Origin: an uncultured Sandaracinus sp.
GTDB taxonomy: Bacteria; Myxococcota_A; Polyangia; Polyangiales; Sandaracinaceae
Direction: 5' to 3'
DNA length: 60,061 nucleotides
Assembly: GCA_903828805.1 (NCBI GenBank)
Contig: CAIKNO010000651.1
Span: 1-60,061, forward strand
The notes under the pieces were generated by a model. It was not told the origin of the DNA. It searched no databases and saw nothing but the letters and a program-made list of their open reading frames with translations. Shown in pieces: positions 13,910 through 26,872 of this stretch (the first letter of the stretch is position 1; each line of letters opens with the position of its first letter). A program made the position numbers and the translations under genes.

Positions 13910-14388
13910 TCGCGGGGCGCGGCGGAAGCGTGCGTCTCCGGCGGGCCGAGGCCGCGGACTGCGCGTTCGTGTGGAACGTGAACAACGAGCCCTCCGTGCG
14001 CGCCCAATCGATCCGCAGCGCGCCCATCCCCTTCGAGGATCACGCGGCCTGGTTCGCCCGGAAGCTCGCCGATGCGAACGCGCTCCTGTGGGTCGCCGAG
14101 GCCCCCGAGGCGGTGGGCGTGGTGCGTTGCGACAAGGCGGCGGCGGGGGCGGAGATCAGCCTCGCGCTGACGCCCGGCGCGCGGGGACGAGGCCTCGGCG
14201 CGGCGATGATCGCGGCCGCGAGCGCGGCGGCGGCCGAGGCGCTCGGCGTGTCGGTGGTCGTGGCGCTCGTGCGCCCGGAGAACCAGGCGAGTTTGCGTGC
14301 CTTCGCGCGGGCAGGCTTTTCGCCCGCCGGTCGCGAGGCACGCGAAGGCGTCGCGCTCGAGCGGCTCGAGTGGCGGGGCCCGGCGTGA
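13906..14388 (+). CDS. pseH: GNAT N-acetyltransferase, PseH-like
   Basis: GNAT fold pattern 'ISLALTPGARGRGLGAAMIAAA'; position in Pse cluster; GTGA overlap with pseI. Confidence 0.75.
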   Translation: MIAGRGGSVRLRRAEAADCAFVWNVNNEPSVRAQSIRSAPIPFEDHAAWFARKLADANALLWVAEAPEAVGVVRCDKAAAGAEISLALTPGARGRGLGAAMIAAASAAAAEALGVSVVVALVRPENQASLRAFARAGFSPAGREAREGVALERLEWRGPA

Positions 14389-14440
14389 ACGGCGCGGGCG
14401 CGCGCGCGGGCTTCGGCTATTCTGCGCTCCCGCGGCGGGC

Positions 14441-15067
14441 ATGAGCGTGCGATTCGGCATCATCGACTACGGCATGGGCAACCTCCGCTCGGTGAGGAAT
14501 GCCTTCGAATTCATCGGTGCCGACGTGGTCATCGTCGAGCGCGGCGAGGACCTCGCGGAGGTCGGTGCGGTGGTGTTGCCGGGCGTCGGCGCGTTCGGCC
14601 GCGGCATGGAGGGACTGCGAAGCCGCGGGTTCGTCGAGGCGCTCGAGCGGCACGTGAGGCAGGACGGCAAGCCCATGCTCGGCATCTGTCTCGGCATGCA
14701 ACTCTTCGCGAAGACCGGCCTCGAGCTCGGCGAGCACGAGGGGCTCGGCTGGGTCGATGCCGTCGTCGAGCGGTTGCCGTCCGCCGAGGGGCTGCGGATC
14801 CCGCACATCGGGTGGAACGACGTGCACGGCGAAGGGCCGCTCTTCGCGGGGATGGGCCACCCGAGCGCGTTCTACTTCGTGCACAGCTTCCACGTCGCGC
14901 CCGCCCACGACGGGCCCTTCGTGTCCGGGCGCACCGAGCACGGCGCGCGCTTCGTGTCGGCCGTGTCGATGGGGAACGTGCACGGCGTGCAGTTCCACCC
15001 CGAGAAGAGCCACCGCTGCGGGATCCAGCTGCTGCGCAACTTCGTCGCCCTCGCGCGGGGGGCGTGA
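14441..15067 (+). CDS. HisH-type glutamine amidotransferase subunit (sugar amidination)
   Basis: 'IIDYGMGNLRSVRNAFE', 'GICLGMQLF', 'VQFHPEKSH' (class I GATase). Confidence 0.85.
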   Translation: MSVRFGIIDYGMGNLRSVRNAFEFIGADVVIVERGEDLAEVGAVVLPGVGAFGRGMEGLRSRGFVEALERHVRQDGKPMLGICLGMQLFAKTGLELGEHEGLGWVDAVVERLPSAEGLRIPHIGWNDVHGEGPLFAGMGHPSAFYFVHSFHVAPAHDGPFVSGRTEHGARFVSAVSMGNVHGVQFHPEKSHRCGIQLLRNFVALARGA

Positions 15068-15071
15068 CGGC

Positions 15072-15899
15072 ATGCTGAAGAAGCGCCTCATCCCCGTCCT
15101 CCTGCTGCAGAACGGCCAGCTCGTGCGGAGCGAGGGGTTCTCGCTGCACCAGATCCTCGGCAACCCGGTGCACGAGGTCGAGCGCTTCAACGAGTGGTCG
15201 GTCGACGAGCTCATCTACATCGACATCAGCGACGACGACGCCATCGACGGGCGGGTCGACATGAAGGTCCGTCGCGACAGCTCTCCGCTCGACCTCCTCG
15301 AGTCGGTGGCCGCCCGCTGCTTCATGCCGCTGACGTTCGGCGGGCGCATCCGCACCCTCGAGGACGTGCGCGCCCGCATCGCGCGCGGCGCCGACAAGGT
15401 CACGCTGAGCACCGCGGCCATCGAGACGCCCGAACTGATCACGCAGGCCGCGGAGGCCTTCGGCAGTCAGGCCATCGTCGCGGTGATCGACGCGCGCAGG
15501 CGCGACGCCGGGGGCTGGGAGGTCGTGTACGACCACGCCCGAAGGTCCATCGCGCCCTCGCCTTCGGAGTGGGCCGTCGAGCTCGAGCGCCTCGGCGCCG
15601 GCGAGATCCTGCTGCAGTCGGTCGACCGCGACGGCACCGCGCAGGGCTACGACCTCGAGCTCATCCGCTCGGTGACGGCCGTCACCCACGTGCCGGTCAT
15701 CGCCCTCGGGGGCGTCGGCCGGCTCGAGCACTTCGCCGACTGCATCACCAAGGGCGGCGCCTCCGCCGCCGCCGCGGCGAACATCTTTCACTTCGTCGAG
15801 CTGAGCGACCGCCGCGCCAAGCGCGCGATGGCCCAGGCCGGCGTCGACGTGCGCCTGGTCCAGACCCCTCCTGCCCAACCGAACAAGGGACGCCGATGA
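15072..15899 (+). CDS. HisF-type cyclase-like subunit (HisF2/WbpI-like partner)
   Basis: 'MLKKRLIPVLLLQNGQLVRSEGF', 'ILLQSVDRDGTAQGYDLELI', 'VPVIALGGVG'. Confidence 0.83.
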   Translation: MLKKRLIPVLLLQNGQLVRSEGFSLHQILGNPVHEVERFNEWSVDELIYIDISDDDAIDGRVDMKVRRDSSPLDLLESVAARCFMPLTFGGRIRTLEDVRARIARGADKVTLSTAAIETPELITQAAEAFGSQAIVAVIDARRRDAGGWEVVYDHARRSIAPSPSEWAVELERLGAGEILLQSVDRDGTAQGYDLELIRSVTAVTHVPVIALGGVGRLEHFADCITKGGASAAAAANIFHFVELSDRRAKRAMAQAGVDVRLVQTPPAQPNKGRR

Positions 15900-17023
15900 G
15901 ATACTGCACCCGCTGCGTGTACCCCTCCGCCGCCGCCACGCCGCTCACCTTCGACGAGAACGGCGTCTGCAGCGGCTGCCGTGGCTACGAGCAGCGCAAG
16001 AAGATCGACTGGTCCGAGCGCAAGGAGCAGCTGCTCGAGCTCGTCGCGCAGTACCGGACCGAGGGGTCGAACTACGACTGCATCATCCCCGTCAGCGGCG
16101 GCAAGGACAGCTACTACCAGACGCACGTGATCGTGAAGGAGCTCGGCCTCAAGCCGCTGCTCGTCACCTACCACGGCAACAACTACCTCCCCGTGGGCGA
16201 GCGAAACCTCTTCCGGATGCGGGAGATCTTCGACGTCGATCACCTCGTGTTCCGGCCCTCGGTGCGGGTGCTGAAGGCGCTGAACCGCCACTGCTTCCGC
16301 GTGATGGGCGACATGAACTGGCACGCGCACTGCGGCATCTTCACGTACCCGGTCCGCGCGGCGTACCAGGTGAAGGTGCCGCTGCTCGTGTGGGGCGAGC
16401 ACGGCTACACCGACCTCGCGGGCATGTACTCGATGAACGACTATGTCGAGATGACCGCGAAGTACCGGCTCGAGCACGCGCAGCGCGGGTTCGACTGGCA
16501 CGACATGGTCGGCGTCGAGGGCATCACCGAGAAGGACATGCTCTGGGCCAAGTACCCGACCGACGACGAGATCGACGAGGTCGGCATCCGCGGCATCTAC
16601 ATCTTCAACTACGTGCCGGGGGAGGCGAACGACCACGGCGCGCTGATGGAGAAGCTCTACGGCTGGGAGCCGAGCCCCGAGCCCTTCGACCGCACGTACC
16701 GCCGCATGTCGAACCTCGACGACATGCACGAGAACGGGATCCACGACTACCTGAAGTACGTGAAGTTCGGATACGGCCGAGGCACCGACCACGCGTGCAA
16801 GGACATCCGCGCCGGCGTGATGACCCGCGCGCAGGGCGTCGAGATGGTCCGCAAGTACGACCACGTGAAGCCGAGCGATCTGTACCGCTGGCTCGACTAC
16901 GTCGGGATGACGGAAGAAGAGTTCGACCGCGTCGCCGACACCTTCCGCGACCCGCGCGTCTGGTCGAAGAACGAGCGCGGGGAGTGGTCGAAGCAGAACA
17001 TCTGGGACGCCTCGGCGGGCTGA
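15896..17023 (+). CDS. N-acetyl sugar amidotransferase (WbpG/PseA family)
   Basis: 'YCTRCVYPSAA..LTFDENGVCSGC', PP-loop 'IIPVSGGKDSYYQTHVI'; 4-bp overlap with hisF-like gene. Confidence 0.88.
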   Translation: MRYCTRCVYPSAAATPLTFDENGVCSGCRGYEQRKKIDWSERKEQLLELVAQYRTEGSNYDCIIPVSGGKDSYYQTHVIVKELGLKPLLVTYHGNNYLPVGERNLFRMREIFDVDHLVFRPSVRVLKALNRHCFRVMGDMNWHAHCGIFTYPVRAAYQVKVPLLVWGEHGYTDLAGMYSMNDYVEMTAKYRLEHAQRGFDWHDMVGVEGITEKDMLWAKYPTDDEIDEVGIRGIYIFNYVPGEANDHGALMEKLYGWEPSPEPFDRTYRRMSNLDDMHENGIHDYLKYVKFGYGRGTDHACKDIRAGVMTRAQGVEMVRKYDHVKPSDLYRWLDYVGMTEEEFDRVADTFRDPRVWSKNERGEWSKQNIWDASAG

Positions 17024-17324
17024 CGACGGCGCGCGGGTGCGGGGGCCGTCACGGGCCCGGCGAATAGGCGGCGACGAAAGCTGAACTGGGCGTTCTGTCG
17101 TGGAGCGCAAGCGGTCTGCGCACGCGTCGCGTGCGCCAGCCATCTCGTGGGCTGCCCCCTTCCGTGTGTGGTGACTCACAGCGCCGATACGGAACGCCGC
17201 TGGCCGGCGGGCCCGGGGGACCTTCGAGGTCGTCCGGGCCATGACGAGGCCAGGTCCTTTCGTGACCGGGGCACGGGGTGCGTCCTTGACCGGGCCGAGC
17301 CGTTGCCTCTACGGTCGTCCCGCG

Positions 17325-17684
17325 GTGCGGACGAGTCGGCAACAGGCGTTCGAGATGGCAGCGGCCATGCTGTCCGTGCTGGCCCTCGTGTTCGCGTGCA
17401 TTCCGGGTCCTTCGGTCGCGCGTGCGTGGCGGACGGAGGTCACGACCTCCGACGCGGAGCGGCAGGACCTCGGCACATCGCTCTCGGAGGGCGCCTTCGA
17501 GGAGTCGGAGGATCCCGATTCCGACGACGACGAACTCGACACCGACGACGGGATTCTCGTGAGCGACGGCGCCTCCGCGCAGCGCGCGCATCGGGACGCC
17601 ATCCAGACACCGCCAGTAGGCGCCCCCTCAGCGCCGACCAACCGCGCGCAGGCCGCCCCCCCGACCCCGCCTCCGGAGCGCTGA
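17325..17684 (+). CDS. Hypothetical small secreted acidic protein
   Basis: 119 aa; hydrophobic N-terminus then acidic EESEDPDSDDDELDTDDG and Pro-rich tail; no homolog recognised. Confidence 0.45.
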   Translation: MRTSRQQAFEMAAAMLSVLALVFACIPGPSVARAWRTEVTTSDAERQDLGTSLSEGAFEESEDPDSDDDELDTDDGILVSDGASAQRAHRDAIQTPPVGAPSAPTNRAQAAPPTPPPER

Positions 17685-17795: not shown

Positions 17796-19880
17796 ATGAA
17801 CGACGCGAAGCGTCCGCCGGGGCGCGGTCGAACGGTGGAGATCGCCGTGGTCCAGGGCCGGGTCACGCAGATGGCGCGGGCCTGGGCGGCCGGCTGGGGA
17901 GACGTGCTTCGGGCACCGAAACTCCCCGACCTGCTGGCCTCCCTGACGGTGGCCGCCGTCGCGATGCCGCTGAACCTCGCCCTGGCGGTGGCGAGCGGGC
18001 TCCCTCCCGCCTCGGGTCTCTTCGCCGGCGCGATCGGAGGGGCCCTGGCCGCCGCATTCGGCGGTTCGTCCTTGCAGGCGACGGGCCCCGCGGCCGCCCT
18101 CAGCCTCATGGTCCTCGGCCTGTCTCAGCGCTTTGGCGCCGTCGGCGTCGCGGCGGCGTGCCTCATCATCGGCGTCACCGAGCTCGTCCTCTCTTTCAGC
18201 GGTGCCGGTCGCCTCGTACGCCACGTCCCCGAGAGCGTGCTCGCGGGGTTCACGACCGGCGTCGGCTTGACGTTGCTCAATGGGCAGATCCCCGAGCTGC
18301 TCGGGTTCGGCGTGCACGACTACAAGACCGTCGACCTCGCAGGGATGATGCACCAGCCGCTCTGGCTGCATCACGTCTCGTGGCTCGCCGCGGTGTCGGG
18401 GATCCTCGTGGCCTTCGTCGTCGTGTCGCTGCAGCGCTTCAAGCGCGTACCGGCGGCCGCCATCGCGGTGGTCGGGGTCACGTTCATCTCCGTCTACGTC
18501 GGCTGGGACGTGGAGCGCGTGCACGACATCGGAGCGGTCCCCTCGACCTTTCCGCAACTGTCGGTGCCCGTGGTCCCGGACGAGCAGTGGCTCGACCTGC
18601 TCCTCGCCACGATGCCGCTGGCGCTGCTGGCCGCGGTCGAGTCGCTCCTCTCGGCGCGCGCGGTCGATCGGATGGCGCCGGACGCACGGCCGCACGAGCC
18701 GAGCCTCGAGCTCTTCGGTCAGGCCGTGGCCAACGTCGGGGTCGGCCTCTTCTCCGGGATGCCCGTCACAGGCGTGGTGGTGCGCTCGGGCGTCAACGTG
18801 CAGAGCGGGGCCAAGACCCGCCTCGCCGCGCTTCTTCACGGCGTGCTGCTCGCAGCGCTGGCGCTCTCGCTGTCGGACACGATCGGGATGATTCCCCAGG
18901 CCGCCCTCGCGGGGCTGCTCTGCGTCATCGGGTTTCGTCTGCTCGAGGTCGGCCCCTTTCTCGAGATGCTGCGCCACGAGCGCCTCGAGGCCGCGGCCTT
19001 CGTCGCCGCCGCTGGGGGCACGGCATCGGGCCATCTCGTCAGCGGCCTCGTGCTCGGCGGGGCGCTCCACGCAGCGCGGGTCTTGATGGAACGAGGAAAG
19101 CCGGCCGCGGCGGCGTTGCGGACGGAGCCGCGCCGCCCAGGCATCCGCGCCGTCCTGGGGCGTGCGCACGCGTCCGCCCGCAGGACCATGCACGGCGAGG
19201 CCGTCACCGAGCAGCACAAATGGCTCGGCCACCTTCGACACGGTCCGGTCCGCGCGCCGACGAGCTACGTTCATCCCCACGCGACGGTGATCGGACGGGT
19301 CGTGCTGAGCGACCATGTGCACGTCGCGGCCGGGACCTCCGTGCGGGCCGACGAGGGCACGCCGTTCTTCTTCGGACCGAACACCAACGTGCAGGACGGA
19401 GTCGTCGTCCACGCGCTCAAGGATCGTGCGGTCGAGCTGGCCGGCGAATCGTGGGCCGTGTACGTCGGCCGCGACGTCTCCATCGCCCACGGCGCGCTCA
19501 TTCACGGCCCTTGCTACATCGGCGACCACACGTTCATCGGGTTCAAGTCGGTCGTGCACGACTCGATCATCGGAGCAGGCTGCTCGATCGGCATCGGCGC
19601 GGTCGTCGTCGGGGTCGAGATCCCCGACGGCAAGTTCGTCCCGCATGGGGCCATCGTCGACTCGGCGGACGCCGTCGACCGCCTCCCCGACGCCACCGCG
19701 CACCATCGTGAGTTCAACGAGGATGTGGTCGAGGTGAACCGCGGTCTGGCAGCCGCCTACACGAGCTTCGACGGTGCGGCACTTCCTCTCCGCAAGGCGC
19801 CGCCCGCGCGGCCCCTCGGGCCACCGATCTCACCCTGGGAACCGACCTGGGCGACCACGTCTGACAAGGAGCGATTCTGA
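17796..19880 (+). CDS. SulP anion transporter fused to CcmM/CamH-type gamma-carbonic anhydrase
   Basis: 694 aa; SulP signatures 'AMPLNLALAVASGLPPASGLFAGAIGG', 'MPVTGVVVRSGVNVQSGAKTRLAALLHG'; C-terminus 'AAGTSVRADEGTPFFFGPNTNVQDGVVVHAL...SIAHGALIHGPCYIGDHTFIGFKSVV...IPDGKFVPHGAIV...ADRLPD' is CcmM-like with three candidate Zn His. Confidence 0.88.
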   Translation: MNDAKRPPGRGRTVEIAVVQGRVTQMARAWAAGWGDVLRAPKLPDLLASLTVAAVAMPLNLALAVASGLPPASGLFAGAIGGALAAAFGGSSLQATGPAAALSLMVLGLSQRFGAVGVAAACLIIGVTELVLSFSGAGRLVRHVPESVLAGFTTGVGLTLLNGQIPELLGFGVHDYKTVDLAGMMHQPLWLHHVSWLAAVSGILVAFVVVSLQRFKRVPAAAIAVVGVTFISVYVGWDVERVHDIGAVPSTFPQLSVPVVPDEQWLDLLLATMPLALLAAVESLLSARAVDRMAPDARPHEPSLELFGQAVANVGVGLFSGMPVTGVVVRSGVNVQSGAKTRLAALLHGVLLAALALSLSDTIGMIPQAALAGLLCVIGFRLLEVGPFLEMLRHERLEAAAFVAAAGGTASGHLVSGLVLGGALHAARVLMERGKPAAAALRTEPRRPGIRAVLGRAHASARRTMHGEAVTEQHKWLGHLRHGPVRAPTSYVHPHATVIGRVVLSDHVHVAAGTSVRADEGTPFFFGPNTNVQDGVVVHALKDRAVELAGESWAVYVGRDVSIAHGALIHGPCYIGDHTFIGFKSVVHDSIIGAGCSIGIGAVVVGVEIPDGKFVPHGAIVDSADAVDRLPDATAHHREFNEDVVEVNRGLAAAYTSFDGAALPLRKAPPARPLGPPISPWEPTWATTSDKERF

Positions 19881-20800
19881 TGTTCGTGCTCGGCCTCATG
19901 GTCGGCCTCGGGGCGTTGACCCTGGGCCTTTCACTCCGTTCGTACATCCACGTCGAGGAGGGCGAGATCGTCGTCCTGACGCGCTTCGGGCGTGCGCTCC
20001 GCTCGCCCGAAGGCCCGCTTCGGATCCTGCGGGCAGGGCTTCATCGCAAGCGCCCCTGGGATGTCGCGCTGCGGGTCAACGTGAAGGAGCAGAGCCTCGA
20101 CCTGAGCGGCGACGAGCACCGGTTCGCGATGACGTCCGACGGAGTCGTCGTGCGCTGCGACTCGACCCTTCGCTTCGCGCCGATCGAGGCCGAGGTGGAG
20201 CACTATCTGTTCACCCTGGAGCGGCCGATGGAGCACCTCGCCGGCACGTTCAGTTGCTTGCTTCGCAACGAGATCGCCAACTTCGGCGCGGGCGATGGTC
20301 CCGTGCCCACAGGGTCCGGAGCCCTGAACGCGGGCGCGCTCATCGAGGCATCGCTCGGCGCCTACGCCGCGATCCGACGAGAGCGAGGACAGCTGCAGGA
20401 GCGCCTCGCCGCGTTCTGCCGAACGACGATGGGCGCACGTCTGGGGCTGCGCTTCGATGCCATCGACGTGATGAACTTCGAGCCTCCCGACGAGCTGCGG
20501 GACACGCTCCACACCGTCATCCAGGCCAAGACGGACGCCGAATCCAGCCACTTCCGGGCGCAGGGGGAGTGCCAGCAGCGGGTGCTGGCCGCCCGGCGCG
20601 GCGTGGAGATCGCATCGCTTCGCGCACAGGCCGTCGAGACGGAGATGCTCGTGCTCGGTCGATCGCTCGAAGTCCTCGAACGCACGAAGGTGCTCCCGCT
20701 CTACGTCGCGCGCCGACAGGCCGAGGTCTTGTCGGAGTCGAGGCACGTGTACGTGCGGGGAACGACCGCACGCGGGGCTGCCGTCCGAGGAGGTGTGTGA
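19880..20800 (+). CDS. SPFH/band-7 (stomatin/HflK-like) membrane protein A
   Basis: N-terminal TM, 'YIHVEEGEIVVLTRFGRALRSPEGP', coiled-coil C-half; TGATG overlap with upstream gene. Confidence 0.75.
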   Translation: MFVLGLMVGLGALTLGLSLRSYIHVEEGEIVVLTRFGRALRSPEGPLRILRAGLHRKRPWDVALRVNVKEQSLDLSGDEHRFAMTSDGVVVRCDSTLRFAPIEAEVEHYLFTLERPMEHLAGTFSCLLRNEIANFGAGDGPVPTGSGALNAGALIEASLGAYAAIRRERGQLQERLAAFCRTTMGARLGLRFDAIDVMNFEPPDELRDTLHTVIQAKTDAESSHFRAQGECQQRVLAARRGVEIASLRAQAVETEMLVLGRSLEVLERTKVLPLYVARRQAEVLSESRHVYVRGTTARGAAVRGGV

Positions 20801-21678
20801 TGGGTTCGTGGTTGCAACTCCTGCTGGGTATGGCCGTCGCGCCCGGGATGGCCTTCCTCGGGTGGCGCCTCTTCCTCGCGACCACCGTCCACGTCGAGGA
20901 CGGAGAAGCGGTGCTGGTCGAGTGGTTCGGTCGGCGCGTGATGACGCTGACGGAGCCGGGCGCGCACTGGCTTCCGCGCCGCATCCTGCCGTGGATGAGG
21001 GTCCAGCACGTCTCGCTTCGGCGTGATTTCCTTCGCCTCGAGAACGTGCACGTCACGGACGTCGAGGGCACGACGGTGATGGTCGATCTGTGGATCGATC
21101 ACCGCGTCGTCGATGCGGCGAAGGCGACCTACAGCGTCGAGCGTCTCGACGAGGCGCTGCGCAGCCTGGTGGCGCATGCGGCAACGGCCCTGCTCGGGCG
21201 ACGCACGTTCTGGGAGATCCTGGCGTCTCGTTCCGACCTCGGGGAGCGCCTTCGCGCCGACATCGCCGCGGACACCGAGCGATGGGGCGTGTGCATCGAG
21301 CATGCGTTCGTCCAGAAGGTGAGCCTTCTGCCCGAGGTCACGTCGCGGATCCTCGAGAGCCTCTCGGCCCGACTCGGGCGCGTGCAGGCGGAGATCCTGG
21401 AGCAAGGTCGCATCGAGGTCGCCGCGCTCGAGGCGCGCACAGGCGTGGAGGTCGCGGCACTCGTGGCCGAGGCCAAGGGGCAGTACCCGGCGGCCGTCGG
21501 CCGCGCGATGTCCGAACTCGGCAAGAGCCCCGAGATCTTGTCCGCCTACAACGAGCTGCATCGACTGTCCGTGCTGCGTCCCCACCGGGCGACGGCCTTC
21601 GTCGGCTTCGGTCCGCACGAGATGAGCGCTATCGAGGCGGCGATGATCCCTGCACGCGCAGAACCTGCGGACGGCTGA
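20800..21678 (+). CDS. SPFH/band-7 membrane protein B
   Basis: N-terminal TM, 'VHVEDGEAVLVEWFGRRVMTLTEPGAHWLP', 'VEGTTVMVDLWIDHRVVDAAKATYSVE'; TGATG overlap. Confidence 0.78.
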   Translation: MGSWLQLLLGMAVAPGMAFLGWRLFLATTVHVEDGEAVLVEWFGRRVMTLTEPGAHWLPRRILPWMRVQHVSLRRDFLRLENVHVTDVEGTTVMVDLWIDHRVVDAAKATYSVERLDEALRSLVAHAATALLGRRTFWEILASRSDLGERLRADIAADTERWGVCIEHAFVQKVSLLPEVTSRILESLSARLGRVQAEILEQGRIEVAALEARTGVEVAALVAEAKGQYPAAVGRAMSELGKSPEILSAYNELHRLSVLRPHRATAFVGFGPHEMSAIEAAMIPARAEPADG

Positions 21679-21759: not shown

Positions 21760-22872
21760 TCAGCCTCGCGACCGTCGGGCGCGCTGCGCGACGACGCGGG
21801 CGAAGAGATCGGCGAGGGCGTCGCCTTGACGCTCGGTGCACAGCGAGGCCTCGACCAGGCCTCGCCCGGCCGCGGACAGCGAGGCGCGCAGCGCGCGATC
21901 ATGCAGCAGCCGGCGCAGGCTCTGGTACCAATCCTCCGCGCTGGCGGCCACGAGCGCATTGCGTTCGTGCTCCACGAAGTCCCGCGCGCCCCCGACGAGC
22001 GAGGTGACGTGCGGCACGCCCACGGCCATGTACTGGACCTGCTTGAAGCCGCACTTGCCTTCGTGCCACTCGGTCGCGTGCATCGGCGCGAGCCCGACGT
22101 CGAGCGACTGGAAGTCGTGGAGTTCGAGGTCCTCCCGCCAGGGCCTGCGCACCGCCGACAATCCCTCGAAGTGCACGTCCTGCCCGGCGCCCACCACCCG
22201 GAACTGGAAGGGCACGCCCTCCCCCCTCAATCGACGGAGCGCAGGGAGCACCAGGTCGAGTTGAGGCGCCGTCGAGTGCGTCCCGATCCACCCGACGACG
22301 GGCGGCGCTCCGGGCGAGGCGAAGCCTCCATCCTGCCGACACGGCAGCGGTGTCCACGCAGCGGCCGGCACGACGGTCGGCAGCACGGTGACGTCCGCCC
22401 CCAGCGCATGCGCGTGCGCGCCGAGGCGGGAGGAGCCTGCGATCACGTGGGCGGCCCGCCGGATCGTCCAGTCCGTCTTCCATGCACATTTCAGGACGCG
22501 CCGGAGCGGCCCTCCCTGGGCGATCCAGATCGCGTCGTCGTAGTCGAGCACGAGCGGAAGCCCGGCACCGGCCATCCCGAGCGCCTCGATCACGGGCGGG
22601 CCCGCCATCATCGCCTCGCGCTGCACCCACAGCGCGTCGTAGCGCCCCCGGGCGCCGAGCGCGCGCAGCTGGCGCCCGAGGCCCGCGAGGCCCGCCCTCA
22701 CCCGCTGCGCACGACCGGCCCCCGAGTAGAGGACGGCGGCCGTCGCATCGTCGAGCCACGGCACGAGGTCGACGTCGATGCCGCGCGCCCGCAGCGCTGG
22801 CGCGTACGCCGCGATCCGGAAGCGGGTCGCGGCCATCCGCTCGGGAAACGATGCGAGGGCGAGGATTCTCAT
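21760..22872 (-). CDS. GT-B glycosyltransferase (GT1/GT4-like)
   Basis: 'GWIGTHSTAPQLDLVLPALRRL', 'GKCGFKQVQYMAVGVPHVTS'. Confidence 0.8.
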   Translation of the reverse strand: MRILALASFPERMAATRFRIAAYAPALRARGIDVDLVPWLDDATAAVLYSGAGRAQRVRAGLAGLGRQLRALGARGRYDALWVQREAMMAGPPVIEALGMAGAGLPLVLDYDDAIWIAQGGPLRRVLKCAWKTDWTIRRAAHVIAGSSRLGAHAHALGADVTVLPTVVPAAAWTPLPCRQDGGFASPGAPPVVGWIGTHSTAPQLDLVLPALRRLRGEGVPFQFRVVGAGQDVHFEGLSAVRRPWREDLELHDFQSLDVGLAPMHATEWHEGKCGFKQVQYMAVGVPHVTSLVGGARDFVEHERNALVAASAEDWYQSLRRLLHDRALRASLSAAGRGLVEASLCTERQGDALADLFARVVAQRARRSRG

Positions 22873-23012
22873 CGATGGCGCTCGGTTGCTCGCGGTCGAG
22901 GGCACGTTCTACACTCGGCCGCGGCGACGGCAATGCCGACGGCCTCGTCGACTTCATCGGACCACCCGCACGCGTCTTCCCCGACCCCCGCCTCTCCTCG
23001 CCGCGACGCCCG

Positions 23013-24254
23013 ATGACGCGACACGTCCTCGCTCTCACCTTCGACGGCATCCTCCAGCCGCTCGGATTCTCGCAGGTGCTCCGGGTCGCGGAGGGGCTCT
23101 CGAACGAGGGGTTCCGCTACACCCTCCTCTCGCTCGAGCGGGAGGCCGACCTCGCGCGACATGCGGACGTCGCGGCCGTGCAGCGCCGGCTGGCGCGCGC
23201 GGGGATCGAGTGGATCTGGGCGCCTTACGACACCCGCGGCGGCGCGACTTCCATCGCCCGCAACATCGCGCGGGCGACCCGGGCCGCGTCCGCCGTCGTC
23301 CGGACCGACCGGCCCGACGTCGTGCACGCGAGGGCCTTCCATGGCGGGCTCGTGGCCCGGGCGCTGCACACGATGCACGGCACGAAGTACGTCTTCGACG
23401 CCCGATCGTACTGGGTGGACGAGCAGGTCGAGGAGGGGCGTCGCTTCACCTCGGAGCGAGCGTATGCGCTCGCCAAGCACGTCGAGCGGGACCTCTTCGA
23501 GCGCGCGGCCGGCATCGTGACCCTCACGGCCCTTCAGGCGGACGATGTTCGCGAGGGGCGCCTCGGGGCGTGGCACGGACGACCCGTGGAGGTCATCCCG
23601 ACCTGCGCCGACTACGCCGAGTTCCGACCCCGCACGCCCGGTGCGCCGAGACCTGCCGCGCTCGATGGAGTTCCCGAGGGCGCCCGCGTGCTCGGCATCG
23701 TGGGTGCGCTGAACCGATCGTACGGCGCGCCGGAGACGGCCCTCCTGGCCCGGGAGATCCTCGCCCTCGATCCGCGCGTTCACCTGCTGGTCCTCACGGC
23801 GCAGGGCGACGAGTACCGGTCGCTGCTCCGCGCACACAGGGTCGACGAGGCCCGCACGCACATCACCCGCGTGTCGCACGACGAGATGCCGCGCGTGCTG
23901 CCCTTCGTGGACTGGGGCTTGCTGCTGCTCCGTTCCAACTTCGCCAAGCGCGCATCGATGCCGACGAAGCTCGCGGAGTTCTTCGCGTGCGGCGTGCGCC
24001 CGCTGCAGCACGGGTGCAACCCCGAGGTGTCGGGCTGGGTCGCGCGTGCAGGCACCGGTCTCGTGCTCGAGGATCTGTCGCCCGACGGTCTCGCGTCGGC
24101 GGCGACGCGGATCGTGAGCGCGGACGAGGCTCAGGTCTCCGCGATCGAGGGCCGGGACCGCACGAAGGACCACTTCTCGCTCGAGGCCGGGGTCGTCCGC
24201 TACGCGCGGCTCCTGCGCGAGGTCACCGAGCGCTCGGATCAACGGCAGTCGTAG
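23013..24254 (+). CDS. GT-B glycosyltransferase
   Basis: 'LTFDGILQPLGFSQVLRVAEGL', 'IPTCADYAEFRP', C-terminal GT4-like region. Confidence 0.8.
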   Translation: MTRHVLALTFDGILQPLGFSQVLRVAEGLSNEGFRYTLLSLEREADLARHADVAAVQRRLARAGIEWIWAPYDTRGGATSIARNIARATRAASAVVRTDRPDVVHARAFHGGLVARALHTMHGTKYVFDARSYWVDEQVEEGRRFTSERAYALAKHVERDLFERAAGIVTLTALQADDVREGRLGAWHGRPVEVIPTCADYAEFRPRTPGAPRPAALDGVPEGARVLGIVGALNRSYGAPETALLAREILALDPRVHLLVLTAQGDEYRSLLRAHRVDEARTHITRVSHDEMPRVLPFVDWGLLLLRSNFAKRASMPTKLAEFFACGVRPLQHGCNPEVSGWVARAGTGLVLEDLSPDGLASAATRIVSADEAQVSAIEGRDRTKDHFSLEAGVVRYARLLREVTERSDQRQS

Positions 24255-25639
24255 AGGTTCCCCAGCCGCGCCGAGGCGCTGAACGCCCCATCGAGGCGCG
24301 CGCCCACCCGGACGCTCGCGGAGGTCCACGACCACGCGGTGCCGGGCGGCCCGGACGTGGGTCCGACCGAGAGCGTGCGCGAGGTTGGATCCCAGCACAC
24401 GGGGCCGAGGCGCGCGTGGCGCGTGAAGCTCAGCGGCGCGGAGCGCGCCATGACGGCCCCCCCGCTCACGAGCTCGACGAAGACGCCGGTCCCGTCGTTC
24501 CGGATGCGCACACCATCGGCTGCGGCGACCGAGACCAGCCAGAACTCGTCGCCCGCCACGAGGTCGGCGGTCGCGAACACGGGAGAGACCTCCGTGAAGC
24601 CCGCGCTCGCGGTGAAGAAGCGCGCGTCCAGATCGGAGGCCGTGAGGAGGAGGCGATCCTGCTCCCGCGTTGCGGTCGAGGAACCGCTGCGGATGGCGCT
24701 CGTCGGGAAGCGCCCGTCCTCGAGCTGGTGAAGATCGAGCACCAGAGAAATGGGGCCCGGCAGCCCACCCGGAATCGTCGTGTCGACCGGGTAGTACACG
24801 CCGGCGGCCGTCGGCGTTCCGGTGGCCGATGGCCGGATCCACGCGGACGTCGCGGTGAGGGCCCAGGCCGGGCGCATCAGGTTTCCATAGGCGTAGTTGG
24901 CGTTCCACGGGCTCATCGTGGGGCTGCGCCCCCACGCCGAGAGCGTGCGGGCCACGCTCGACGTGCCGGTGTCCTGCCCCGGGGGATAGCCAATGCCCGA
25001 GACACGCTGCGCCGACGCGGTGCCGTCGGGGCCGGGCTCGCGCGTCCCTGCGATCATGCACGATGCAGATCCCGGCTGGCCCCATCGCGAGGTGCCCACC
25101 TCTCGGGAATCACGGATGAAGTTCGTGGCCTGGCCCTCGATCAGCAGGAGCGGCCCCGCCCCATCGCCGCGGTCCTCGAGACGTCGCTGATCCACGGCGG
25201 CCCAAGCCACGAACGCGCGAGCATCGGAAGGCGCTCCCGTCAGATACGACCCCTCGCTTCGCCGGGCGAACGTCCCCGCGGTCGACAGGTCGACCGTCCA
25301 TGGCCGACCCGCATCGGTGCCGGCGTCGAACGTGCCTGCATCGGTGCCGGCGTCGAACGTGCCCGCATCGGTGCCGGCGTCGAACGTGCCCGCGTCGAAC
25401 GTGCCCGCATCGGTGCCGGCGTCGAATGTGCCCGCGTCGAACCCGGGCCCCCCATCGTCACTCCCGGCATCCGGGGCACCGGCGTCGCGCGTGCCGGAGT
25501 CCACGCTCCCCGCGTCGCGCCGACCGCCGTCGACTTGACCCGCATCGACCGATTCGTCGATCAAGCCTGCCCGGTCGAGGCTGCATCCCCACAGCGTCGC
25601 GCACACGCATCCCACCCACGCCCAGGCCCGACGATCCAT
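24239..25639 (-). CDS. Lipoprotein with DAG-repeat linker and lectin/LamG-like C-terminal domain
   Basis: 'MDRRAWAWVGCVCATLWGC' signal; tandem (TFDAGTDAG)n linker. Confidence 0.65.
   Translation of the reverse strand: MDRRAWAWVGCVCATLWGCSLDRAGLIDESVDAGQVDGGRRDAGSVDSGTRDAGAPDAGSDDGGPGFDAGTFDAGTDAGTFDAGTFDAGTDAGTFDAGTDAGTFDAGTDAGRPWTVDLSTAGTFARRSEGSYLTGAPSDARAFVAWAAVDQRRLEDRGDGAGPLLLIEGQATNFIRDSREVGTSRWGQPGSASCMIAGTREPGPDGTASAQRVSGIGYPPGQDTGTSSVARTLSAWGRSPTMSPWNANYAYGNLMRPAWALTATSAWIRPSATGTPTAAGVYYPVDTTIPGGLPGPISLVLDLHQLEDGRFPTSAIRSGSSTATREQDRLLLTASDLDARFFTASAGFTEVSPVFATADLVAGDEFWLVSVAAADGVRIRNDGTGVFVELVSGGAVMARSAPLSFTRHARLGPVCWDPTSRTLSVGPTSGPPGTAWSWTSASVRVGARLDGAFSASARLGNLYDCR
25311..25443. 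repeat. 27-bp in-frame tandem repeat encoding TFDAGTDAG units
   Basis: Repeats of gcatcggtgccggcgtcgaacgtgccc, some partial 15-bp units. Confidence 0.9.
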
Positions 25640-25831
25640 CCGAGCATCATCGCCGACCGGGCCGGGGCGTCAACGCCCAAGCGCACGCTGCGTCTCGAGG
25701 GCACCGCGATGAACGCTCCGGCGTTCGTCGGCAACCGTGGGGCGCGGGCCGCGCAGGCCGCCCCGGCTACCACCCTCGGGCAGTTCGTTGTAGGACTCGC
25801 ACCGGTTTTTCCCACCCCGTCTCGGAGCGCC

Positions 25832-26872
25832 ATGCCCGCAGGAAAGCTCGATCTGAAGTCCGTGCTGATCACCGGTGGAACGGGATCGTTCGGCAAGGCG
25901 TTCGTCCGCTCGGCCCTCGGCCGCGGGTTCGAGCGCGTCGTCGTGTTCTCCCGGGATGAGCTGAAGCAGTACGAGATGGCGCAGATGCCTGAATTCCAGG
26001 ATCCGCGGGTGCGCTTCTTCATCGGCGACGTGCGGGACAAGGAGCGACTGCTTCGGGCCCTCGAGGACATCGACGTCGTCGTCCACGCCGCCGCGCTCAA
26101 GCAGGTGCCCGCGGCCGAGTACAACCCGTTCGAGGCGATCAAGACGAACGTCATCGGTGCGCAGAACGTCATCGAAGGATGCATCGATCGGGGCGTGCGT
26201 CGGGTCGTGGCGCTGAGCACCGACAAGGCGGCCGCGCCGATCAATCTCTACGGCGCGACCAAGCTCTGCTCCGACAAGCTCTTCGTCGCGGCGAACAACA
26301 TGCGGGGTCGGCGTGACCTGCGGATCAGCGTCGTGCGCTACGGCAACGTGATGGGGAGCCGCGGCAGCGTGATCCCGTTCTTCATGAAGCAGGCGGCGTC
26401 CGGCGTGCTGCCGATCACGGACCCGCGGATGACGCGCTTCAACATCACGCTCGAAGAGGGCGTCGCGCTCGTCGACCGCGCGCTCGCCGAGATGTGGGGC
26501 GGCGAGATCTTCGTGCCCAAGATCCCGAGCTATCGGATCACGGACGTCGCCGAGGCGGTCGGACCTCGCTGCGAGCAACGCATCGTCGGCATCCGCCCGG
26601 GCGAGAAGCTCCACGAGGAGATGATCACCGAGACCGACGCGCTCCAGACGCTCGCGTTCGGCGACCACTTCGTCATCCTTCCCGGGACCGCCGAGTGGAG
26701 CGCGCTCGAGTACGCGCAGGCGCGGCGCGGCACCATGTGCGACGCGGGGTTCCGGTATTCGAGCGGGACCAACGACGAGTGGCTCTCCGTCGCGGAGATC
26801 CGCCGGTTGATCCATGCCCACGTCGACCCGGCGTTCCGCTTCGACGACGCGCGCGAGGGAGGCGCCGCGTGA
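25832..26872 (+). CDS. pseB: UDP-GlcNAc 4,6-dehydratase (inverting)
   Basis: 'KSVLITGGTGSFGKAFVRSAL', 'FSRDELKQYEMAQ', 'HAAALKQVPAAEYNPFEAIKTNVIGAQNVI'. Confidence 0.94.
   Translation: MPAGKLDLKSVLITGGTGSFGKAFVRSALGRGFERVVVFSRDELKQYEMAQMPEFQDPRVRFFIGDVRDKERLLRALEDIDVVVHAAALKQVPAAEYNPFEAIKTNVIGAQNVIEGCIDRGVRRVVALSTDKAAAPINLYGATKLCSDKLFVAANNMRGRRDLRISVVRYGNVMGSRGSVIPFFMKQAASGVLPITDPRMTRFNITLEEGVALVDRALAEMWGGEIFVPKIPSYRITDVAEAVGPRCEQRIVGIRPGEKLHEEMITETDALQTLAFGDHFVILPGTAEWSALEYAQARRGTMCDAGFRYSSGTNDEWLSVAEIRRLIHAHVDPAFRFDDAREGGAA

Follow-up and report, generated by a model that had tools for sequence, protein, structure and literature searches.

Directly downstream of a gene that fuses a SulP transporter to a gamma-class carbonic anhydrase (CA), the window, by which is meant the whole stretch of 60,061 nucleotides analysed here (uncultured Sandaracinus sp.), carries two genes for SPFH proteins, and the arrangement suggests an unrecognised three-gene module for the handling of bicarbonate. 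The account as a whole, an inorganic-carbon module made up of a bicarbonate transporter, a tethered CA and an organising SPFH assembly, is given a probability of about 55%. The features of the locus are:

17241–17684, + strand: possible fourth gene (tentative), a small protein with a hydrophobic N-terminal stretch and an acidic middle
17796–19880, + strand: SulP–gamma-CA fusion gene, 694 aa (profiles, alignment, structure model)
17928–19007, + strand: SulP/SLC26 transmembrane domain, residues 45–404 (PF00916, E=3.2e-58; Foldseek, SLC26Dg 0.90 and BicA 0.84)
19086–19244, + strand: linker, residues 431–483 (about 50 aa), mostly of low model confidence, with an invariant Trp (W476) and coding bias
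19245–19763, + strand: gamma-CA domain, residues 484–656, a left-handed beta-helix and C-terminal helix
19410–19412, + strand: His539, metal ligand (Cam His81 position), invariant in 18/18
19419–19421, + strand: Lys542, at the place of Cam Glu84, invariant in the fusions
19488–19490, + strand: His565, metal ligand (Cam His117 position), invariant in 18/18
19503–19505, + strand: His570, metal ligand (Cam His122 position), invariant in 18/18
19872–19877, + strand: C-terminal -Arg-Phe, a conserved end behind a variable tail
19880–20800, + strand: SPFH1, 306 aa, Band_7, nearest HflC (PF01145, 3.5e-12; HflC 7vhq, 2e-15 by profile; model and Foldseek)
20800–21678, + strand: SPFH2, 292 aa, Band_7, nearest QmcA/stomatin/HflK (PF01145, 5.8e-18; by profile QmcA 4e-18, stomatin 1e-16 and HflK 7e-10)

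The locus, its hosts and its probable role

The sequence-only reading of this DNA had proposed one uninterrupted 694-aa frame in which a SulP domain without STAS is joined to a gamma-CA in a non-cyanobacterium, and each of these points was upheld; the machine for CO2/bicarbonate channelling in one polypeptide that it also suggested is a possibility. The SPFH pair, the swapping of transporter halves and the conserved -RF ending were not among its points. The frame is open, with zero internal stops; the domain search gave Sulfate_transp, the CcmM model (5.1e-59) and a gamma-CA model (6.3e-50), and the Pfam search gave no hit to STAS even with the threshold relaxed to E<1, a C-terminal STAS domain being usual, not universal, in SulP/SLC26 transporters. 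The same reading had considered that a frameshift or assembly error in the linker, at about 19090–19260, might have created the fusion. This is ruled out by the third-position GC bias, which continues across the linker (0.83) and marks it as coding, and by the presence of the same two-domain ORF at 17 further loci. Since 18 full-length members, each with both domains on a single polypeptide, and one copy split between contigs occur in the Myxococcota, the fusion is not an accident of assembly. The AlphaFold (AF2) model, built from these 18 sequences and of moderate quality (mean pLDDT 71, pTM 0.55), places in order a SulP bundle, a low-confidence linker (about 432–481), a beta-helix, a helix (635–660) and a disordered tail.

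Among 386 Myxococcota genomes searched, 16 gave strong matches, one of which (G253) was rejected, its protein being SulP followed by non-CA sequence. The remaining 15 are fusion genomes, with two copies each in G363 and G384 and a gene split by contig ends in G157. In all, the 18 full-length members, the window's included, and the split copy make up 19 loci. The gamma fusion is absent from the two genomes of the same genus. A species-wide scan, made with exact peptide patterns from the window protein only, returned three full-length relatives, all Myxococcales, and among plasmids no match covered 80% of the query.

Both SPFH genes lie directly 3' of the fusion gene on the same strand at 19/19 loci. 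A wider conserved cluster was rejected, as the neighbourhood comparison gave no gene family, beyond the fusion and the SPFH pair, common to at least three loci. The flanks in the window (about 14300–17000 and 21760–26870) appear by eye to hold surface-polysaccharide-like genes, among them a HisH/HisF-like pair, a sugar amidotransferase-like and a glycosyltransferase-like gene, so the proposed module appears to lie in an unrelated neighbourhood. Small ORFs resembling the possible fourth gene stand directly upstream of the fusion elsewhere (L003, 316–765; L004, 349–774; L005, 5166–5708), all three with '..RPPR..' near the end; comparison of the window ORF with these look-alikes showed no significant homology.

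No RuBisCO match was found in the genome of the window, nor in 15 of the 17 genomes searched. Two fusion-bearing genomes gave matches to the RuBisCO-large family (G090, C249; G130, C72; loci L082 and L083). With no match in the window genome, a link to carboxysomes or RuBisCO is unlikely. Because the hosts mostly lack RuBisCO, a heterotroph would more probably use the module to supply bicarbonate to carboxylases or to balance CO2 and pH than to fix carbon in a carboxysome. The SulP domain would carry bicarbonate across the inner membrane, or exchange it for another anion, and the CA on the cytosolic C-terminus would interconvert HCO3- and CO2 at the inner mouth, thereby maintaining a steep HCO3- gradient whichever way transport runs.

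The module might instead work mainly outward, the tethered CA hydrating metabolic CO2 and the transporter exporting HCO3- for another anion, in pH control or carbonate precipitation. The hosts are probably CO2-making heterotrophs, a cytosolic CA suits both directions, and export by SulP has been raised for other SulP–CA pairs (PMC6458275, PMC5489568). However, no sequence feature fixes the direction, and non-autotrophs need HCO3- uptake too, as with MpsAB in Staphylococcus (PMC6689103); a mainly outward role is judged possible, if somewhat unlikely.

The SPFH pair and the C-terminal tail

In the window the start of SPFH1 overlaps the stop codon of the fusion gene, and that of SPFH2 the stop codon of SPFH1, by one base each, the last of the codon. 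Over the 19 loci the gap before SPFH1 is -1 to +91 nt and that before SPFH2 mostly -4 or -1. Both proteins score above the gathering score of PF01145 (47 bits for SPFH1 and 66 for SPFH2, against 23.6), and their domains are of the stomatin/HflK–HflC type. SPFH2 hardly occurs elsewhere in the phylum: a search of the 386 genomes found it in 17, namely the 15 with fusions, one with a fragment at a contig edge (G268) and one with a 30%-identical pair (G351). The last of these (L112, G351:C48) is a distant tandem SPFH pair without an adjoining SulP gene.

Lysyl- and arginyl-residues, summed over the 19 proteins before and after the N-terminal helix, number 0 against 26 in SPFH1 and 3 against 20 in SPFH2, from which the SPFH domains are predicted to be cytosolic, on the same side of the membrane as the CA domain. 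The monomer model of SPFH1 (pLDDT 85) consists of an SPFH domain and long helices, as in ring-forming SPFH subunits, and is matched in Foldseek by HflC, HflK, prohibitin, QmcA and stomatin. The Foldseek matches include 9zd2, a solved stomatin–aquaporin complex, in which there is thus already a case of a membrane channel held by an SPFH protein. Gene linkage alone is no proof of contact; that the SPFH proteins touch the fusion protein is something we infer from the conserved arrangement.

The sequence between the CA domain and the C-terminal end is unalignable among members, yet the fusions end in -RF (16/19) or -SF (2/19), with one (L052) carrying HRF and five more residues. Where the genes overlap, the codons of a KER motif double as the ribosome-binding site of SPFH1 (AAGGAG = Lys-Glu), which made it plausible that -RF is a by-product of that site. 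This was rejected: all eight RF/SF loci in which SPFH1 starts 13–91 nt downstream keep the ending and encode it by differing codons, which suggests a constraint at the level of the protein. The -RF tail is a candidate docking site for the SPFH proteins. Each of these would be anchored by a single N-terminal helix, and the two could assemble into a hetero-oligomeric ring or dome by which the fusion proteins are gathered, regulated, or both.

Because SulP proteins assemble as dimers but gamma-CAs as trimers, their combination in one polypeptide calls for a flexible linker; a linker, putatively flexible, is present. Speculatively, it could knit SulP dimers and CA trimers into clusters beneath the SPFH ring. 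Carried to its end, this gives a protein-walled carbon metabolon, with the SulP/CA cluster held by its -RF tails under a cytosolic SPFH dome and HCO3- and CO2 handed over in a confined space. Such a structure is proposed tentatively and its existence is doubtful; if real, it would be a carbon metabolon of heterotrophs distinct from carboxysomes.

The SPFH pair could also serve as dedicated quality control of the level of the fusion protein, like HflKC with FtsH, with -RF as a degradation signal. SPFH1 is nearest to HflC, SPFH2 is partly HflK-like, and FtsH is regulated by HflKC. Nevertheless, both fall far below the cut-offs of the HflC and HflK models (TIGR01932 and TIGR01933; 31 against 134 and 33 against 159 bits), SPFH2 is nearer to QmcA and stomatin, no further gene family is linked to the loci, and the SPFH domains are predicted to be cytosolic whereas those of HflKC are periplasmic. 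Quality control is accordingly considered unlikely, and an organising role for the pair is preferred.

The anhydrase and transporter halves

Among solved structures, the C-terminal part is closest in sequence to CcmM (3kwc, 1e-49), then to dGCA1 and Cam (1thj/3ow5; Cam 1e-39), and the model of the CA domain superimposes on Cam with a TM-score of 0.82 and an rmsd of 1.6 A (Foldseek), which is the left-handed beta-helix fold of gamma-CAs. The NCBIfam CcmM model (NF053794) covers residues 487–659 and the gamma-CA model NF040597 residues 483–656, each scoring below its equivalog cut-off. The Pfam search gave no match to PF00484, the beta-class CA, and after the CA domain there is just a tail of about 35 aa, with no RbcS-like repeats. 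By profile and fold, the anhydrase is to be classed with Cam and CcmM, and not as CcmM as such. Of the CcmM-type enzyme earlier proposed, the general class therefore stands, with 3kwc as closest structure, while the narrower assignment does not: the CcmM model scores 200 bits against a cut-off of 550, the fusions group with CcmM, apart from the standalone Cam-type enzymes of Myxococcota, only at 93/91 in a tree in which CcmM sits on a long branch, and an invariant Lys (K542) replaces the Glu of Cam. Several of the standalone Cam-type enzymes of other Myxococcota (L099–L109) have by eye an N-terminal membrane or lipoprotein signal and are perhaps extracytoplasmic.

The candidate zinc ligands named beforehand (His539, His565 and His570, at codons 19410, 19488 and 19503) proved correct, and the alignment retains the metal site, whose absence would have counted against the proposal: R517, D519, E520, N531, Q533, D534, H539, H565, H570 and N648 are invariant in all 18 full-length members. 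From this conservation we infer that the domain is catalytically active in CO2/HCO3- interconversion. It could alternatively be a catalytically dead trimerisation scaffold that clusters SulP under the SPFH ring without chemistry. The CcmM gamma-CA domain, which belongs to a scaffold protein and is among the nearest relatives, is dead in some cyanobacteria, and all fusions have Lys at the position of Glu84, the proton shuttle of Cam, whereas the majority of standalone Cam-type enzymes from other Myxococcota retain Glu. A beta-CA is also present in 14/15 fusion genomes, so that the fusion is not the sole source of CA. On the other side, the invariance of the three His and of the R, D, E, N, Q, D and N active-site residues is unexpected for a domain kept for its shape only, and no other part is as well conserved as the CA (84%) when swapped copies are compared. 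A dead scaffold is regarded as quite unlikely, and an active enzyme is retained.

The SulP half fits SLC26Dg and BicA (Foldseek TM-scores normalised to the target), which are also, in this order, the nearest solved structures to the membrane domain by sequence. The SulP halves of the family belong to two lineages with about 28% identity between them; their CA halves are 64–75% identical to that of the window. The two copies in G363 share 25% identity in SulP, 84% in CA and 60–65% in the SPFH proteins. In the SulP tree a single clade of all fusions is rejected (AU p=0.005) and in the CA tree a single clade of the second lineage is weakly rejected (p=0.033), both groups having been named after the tree was seen. 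SulP halves have therefore been swapped on a common CA–SPFH cassette, or cassettes have been converted between copies.

Bicarbonate is the likeliest substrate of the SulP half, because SulP has acquired CA domains of two unrelated classes and two SulP lineages bear one CA cassette; for two such distant lineages on the same cassette, a common substrate, that of the CA, is the simplest account. Sulfate or another anion is conceivable, as E282 and R330 of the fusion align with the E and R of the sulfate carrier AtSULTR4;1; the same site occurs in many SulP/SLC26 proteins, and BicA has Asp there. That the fusion is such an anion carrier, its CA merely adjusting local pH or proton supply, would agree with this pair, with the generic sulfate-permease families matched (TIGR00815/PF00916) and with a score of 129 bits against a cut-off of 880 in the BicA-specific model (NF050096), but SulP has been paired with two unrelated CA classes and a single CA cassette has served two SulP lineages, which speaks for a carbon substrate and makes such a role very improbable.

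Comparison with known systems

That SulP proteins adjoining or fused with CA transport bicarbonate is an established hypothesis, for which PMC6458275 and PMC10350532 cite Felce and Saier (2004), and the earlier statement that SulP is known in fusion with other CA types was accurate. SulP–beta-CA fusions, named by NCBI 'bifunctional SulP family inorganic anion transporter/carbonic ...', likewise carry SulP and a C-terminal CA on one polypeptide and, in the accounts cited, are proposed to transport bicarbonate; they differ in having a beta-class Pro_CA domain, and the two examples tested (G009) retain STAS. These two (L115, 2346–4694; L116, 1848–4286) are SulP–STAS–beta-CA fusions in a genome of the same genus that has no gamma fusion, and amount to another way of bringing SulP and CA together. 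We know of no SPFH partners of SulP–beta-CA fusions. In sulP-can2 of Acidithiobacillus ferrooxidans (PMC6458275) the SulP and CA genes adjoin, and are fused in some organisms; there, unlike the single polypeptide described here, can2 is a separate gene and the host an autotroph. The literature searched, with many subscription journals beyond reach, contained no report of a gamma-class SulP fusion or of a SulP–SPFH operon. A second, unrelated CA class on SulP, with the transporter swapped while the CA is kept, is independent evidence for bicarbonate transport by SulP–CA proteins.

The gamma-CA domain of CcmM from T. elongatus (3kwc) shares fold and metal ligands with that of the fusion; it belongs to a soluble scaffold protein of the carboxysome that also bears RbcS-like repeats, whereas the domain described here sits on a transporter. 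The Cam enzyme of Methanosarcina thermophila, with the same fold and most of the catalytic residues, is standalone and has Glu84 in place of Lys542. BicA (6ki1) and SLC26Dg (5da0) have the SulP/SLC26 fold in common with the fusion, which differs in Glu282 (Asp in BicA), in Arg330, where both differ, and in the lack of STAS. DAB2 (PMC13144422) and MpsAB likewise take up CO2/HCO3- at the membrane, one of the two in a non-autotroph, and consist of proteins unrelated to the fusion; a need for uptake of this kind can exist outside autotrophs, as MpsAB demonstrates (PMC6689103).

HflK/HflC, QmcA and stomatin are also membrane-anchored SPFH proteins with long helices, and SPFH1 and SPFH2 form a tandem pair as HflK and HflC do; they differ from the latter in their scores below the cut-offs, in their tie to a transporter gene and in a predicted cytosolic location, like that of QmcA and stomatin. 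To our knowledge most bacterial SPFH proteins lack a client, and the two described here gain a probable one. Stomatin, in function the closest analogue of the SPFH pair, has a ring of 16 subunits (PMC12344292); it attaches to AE1 and increases the HCO3-/Cl- exchange which that carrier performs (PMC5383999). In the red cell a bicarbonate carrier, a CA and an SPFH protein belong to one membrane system. Those are separate animal proteins of other families (SLC4, alpha-CA) and the likeness is one of analogy only; the natural three-gene operon would offer a bacterial setting in which the stomatin-type boost of bicarbonate exchange can be tested.
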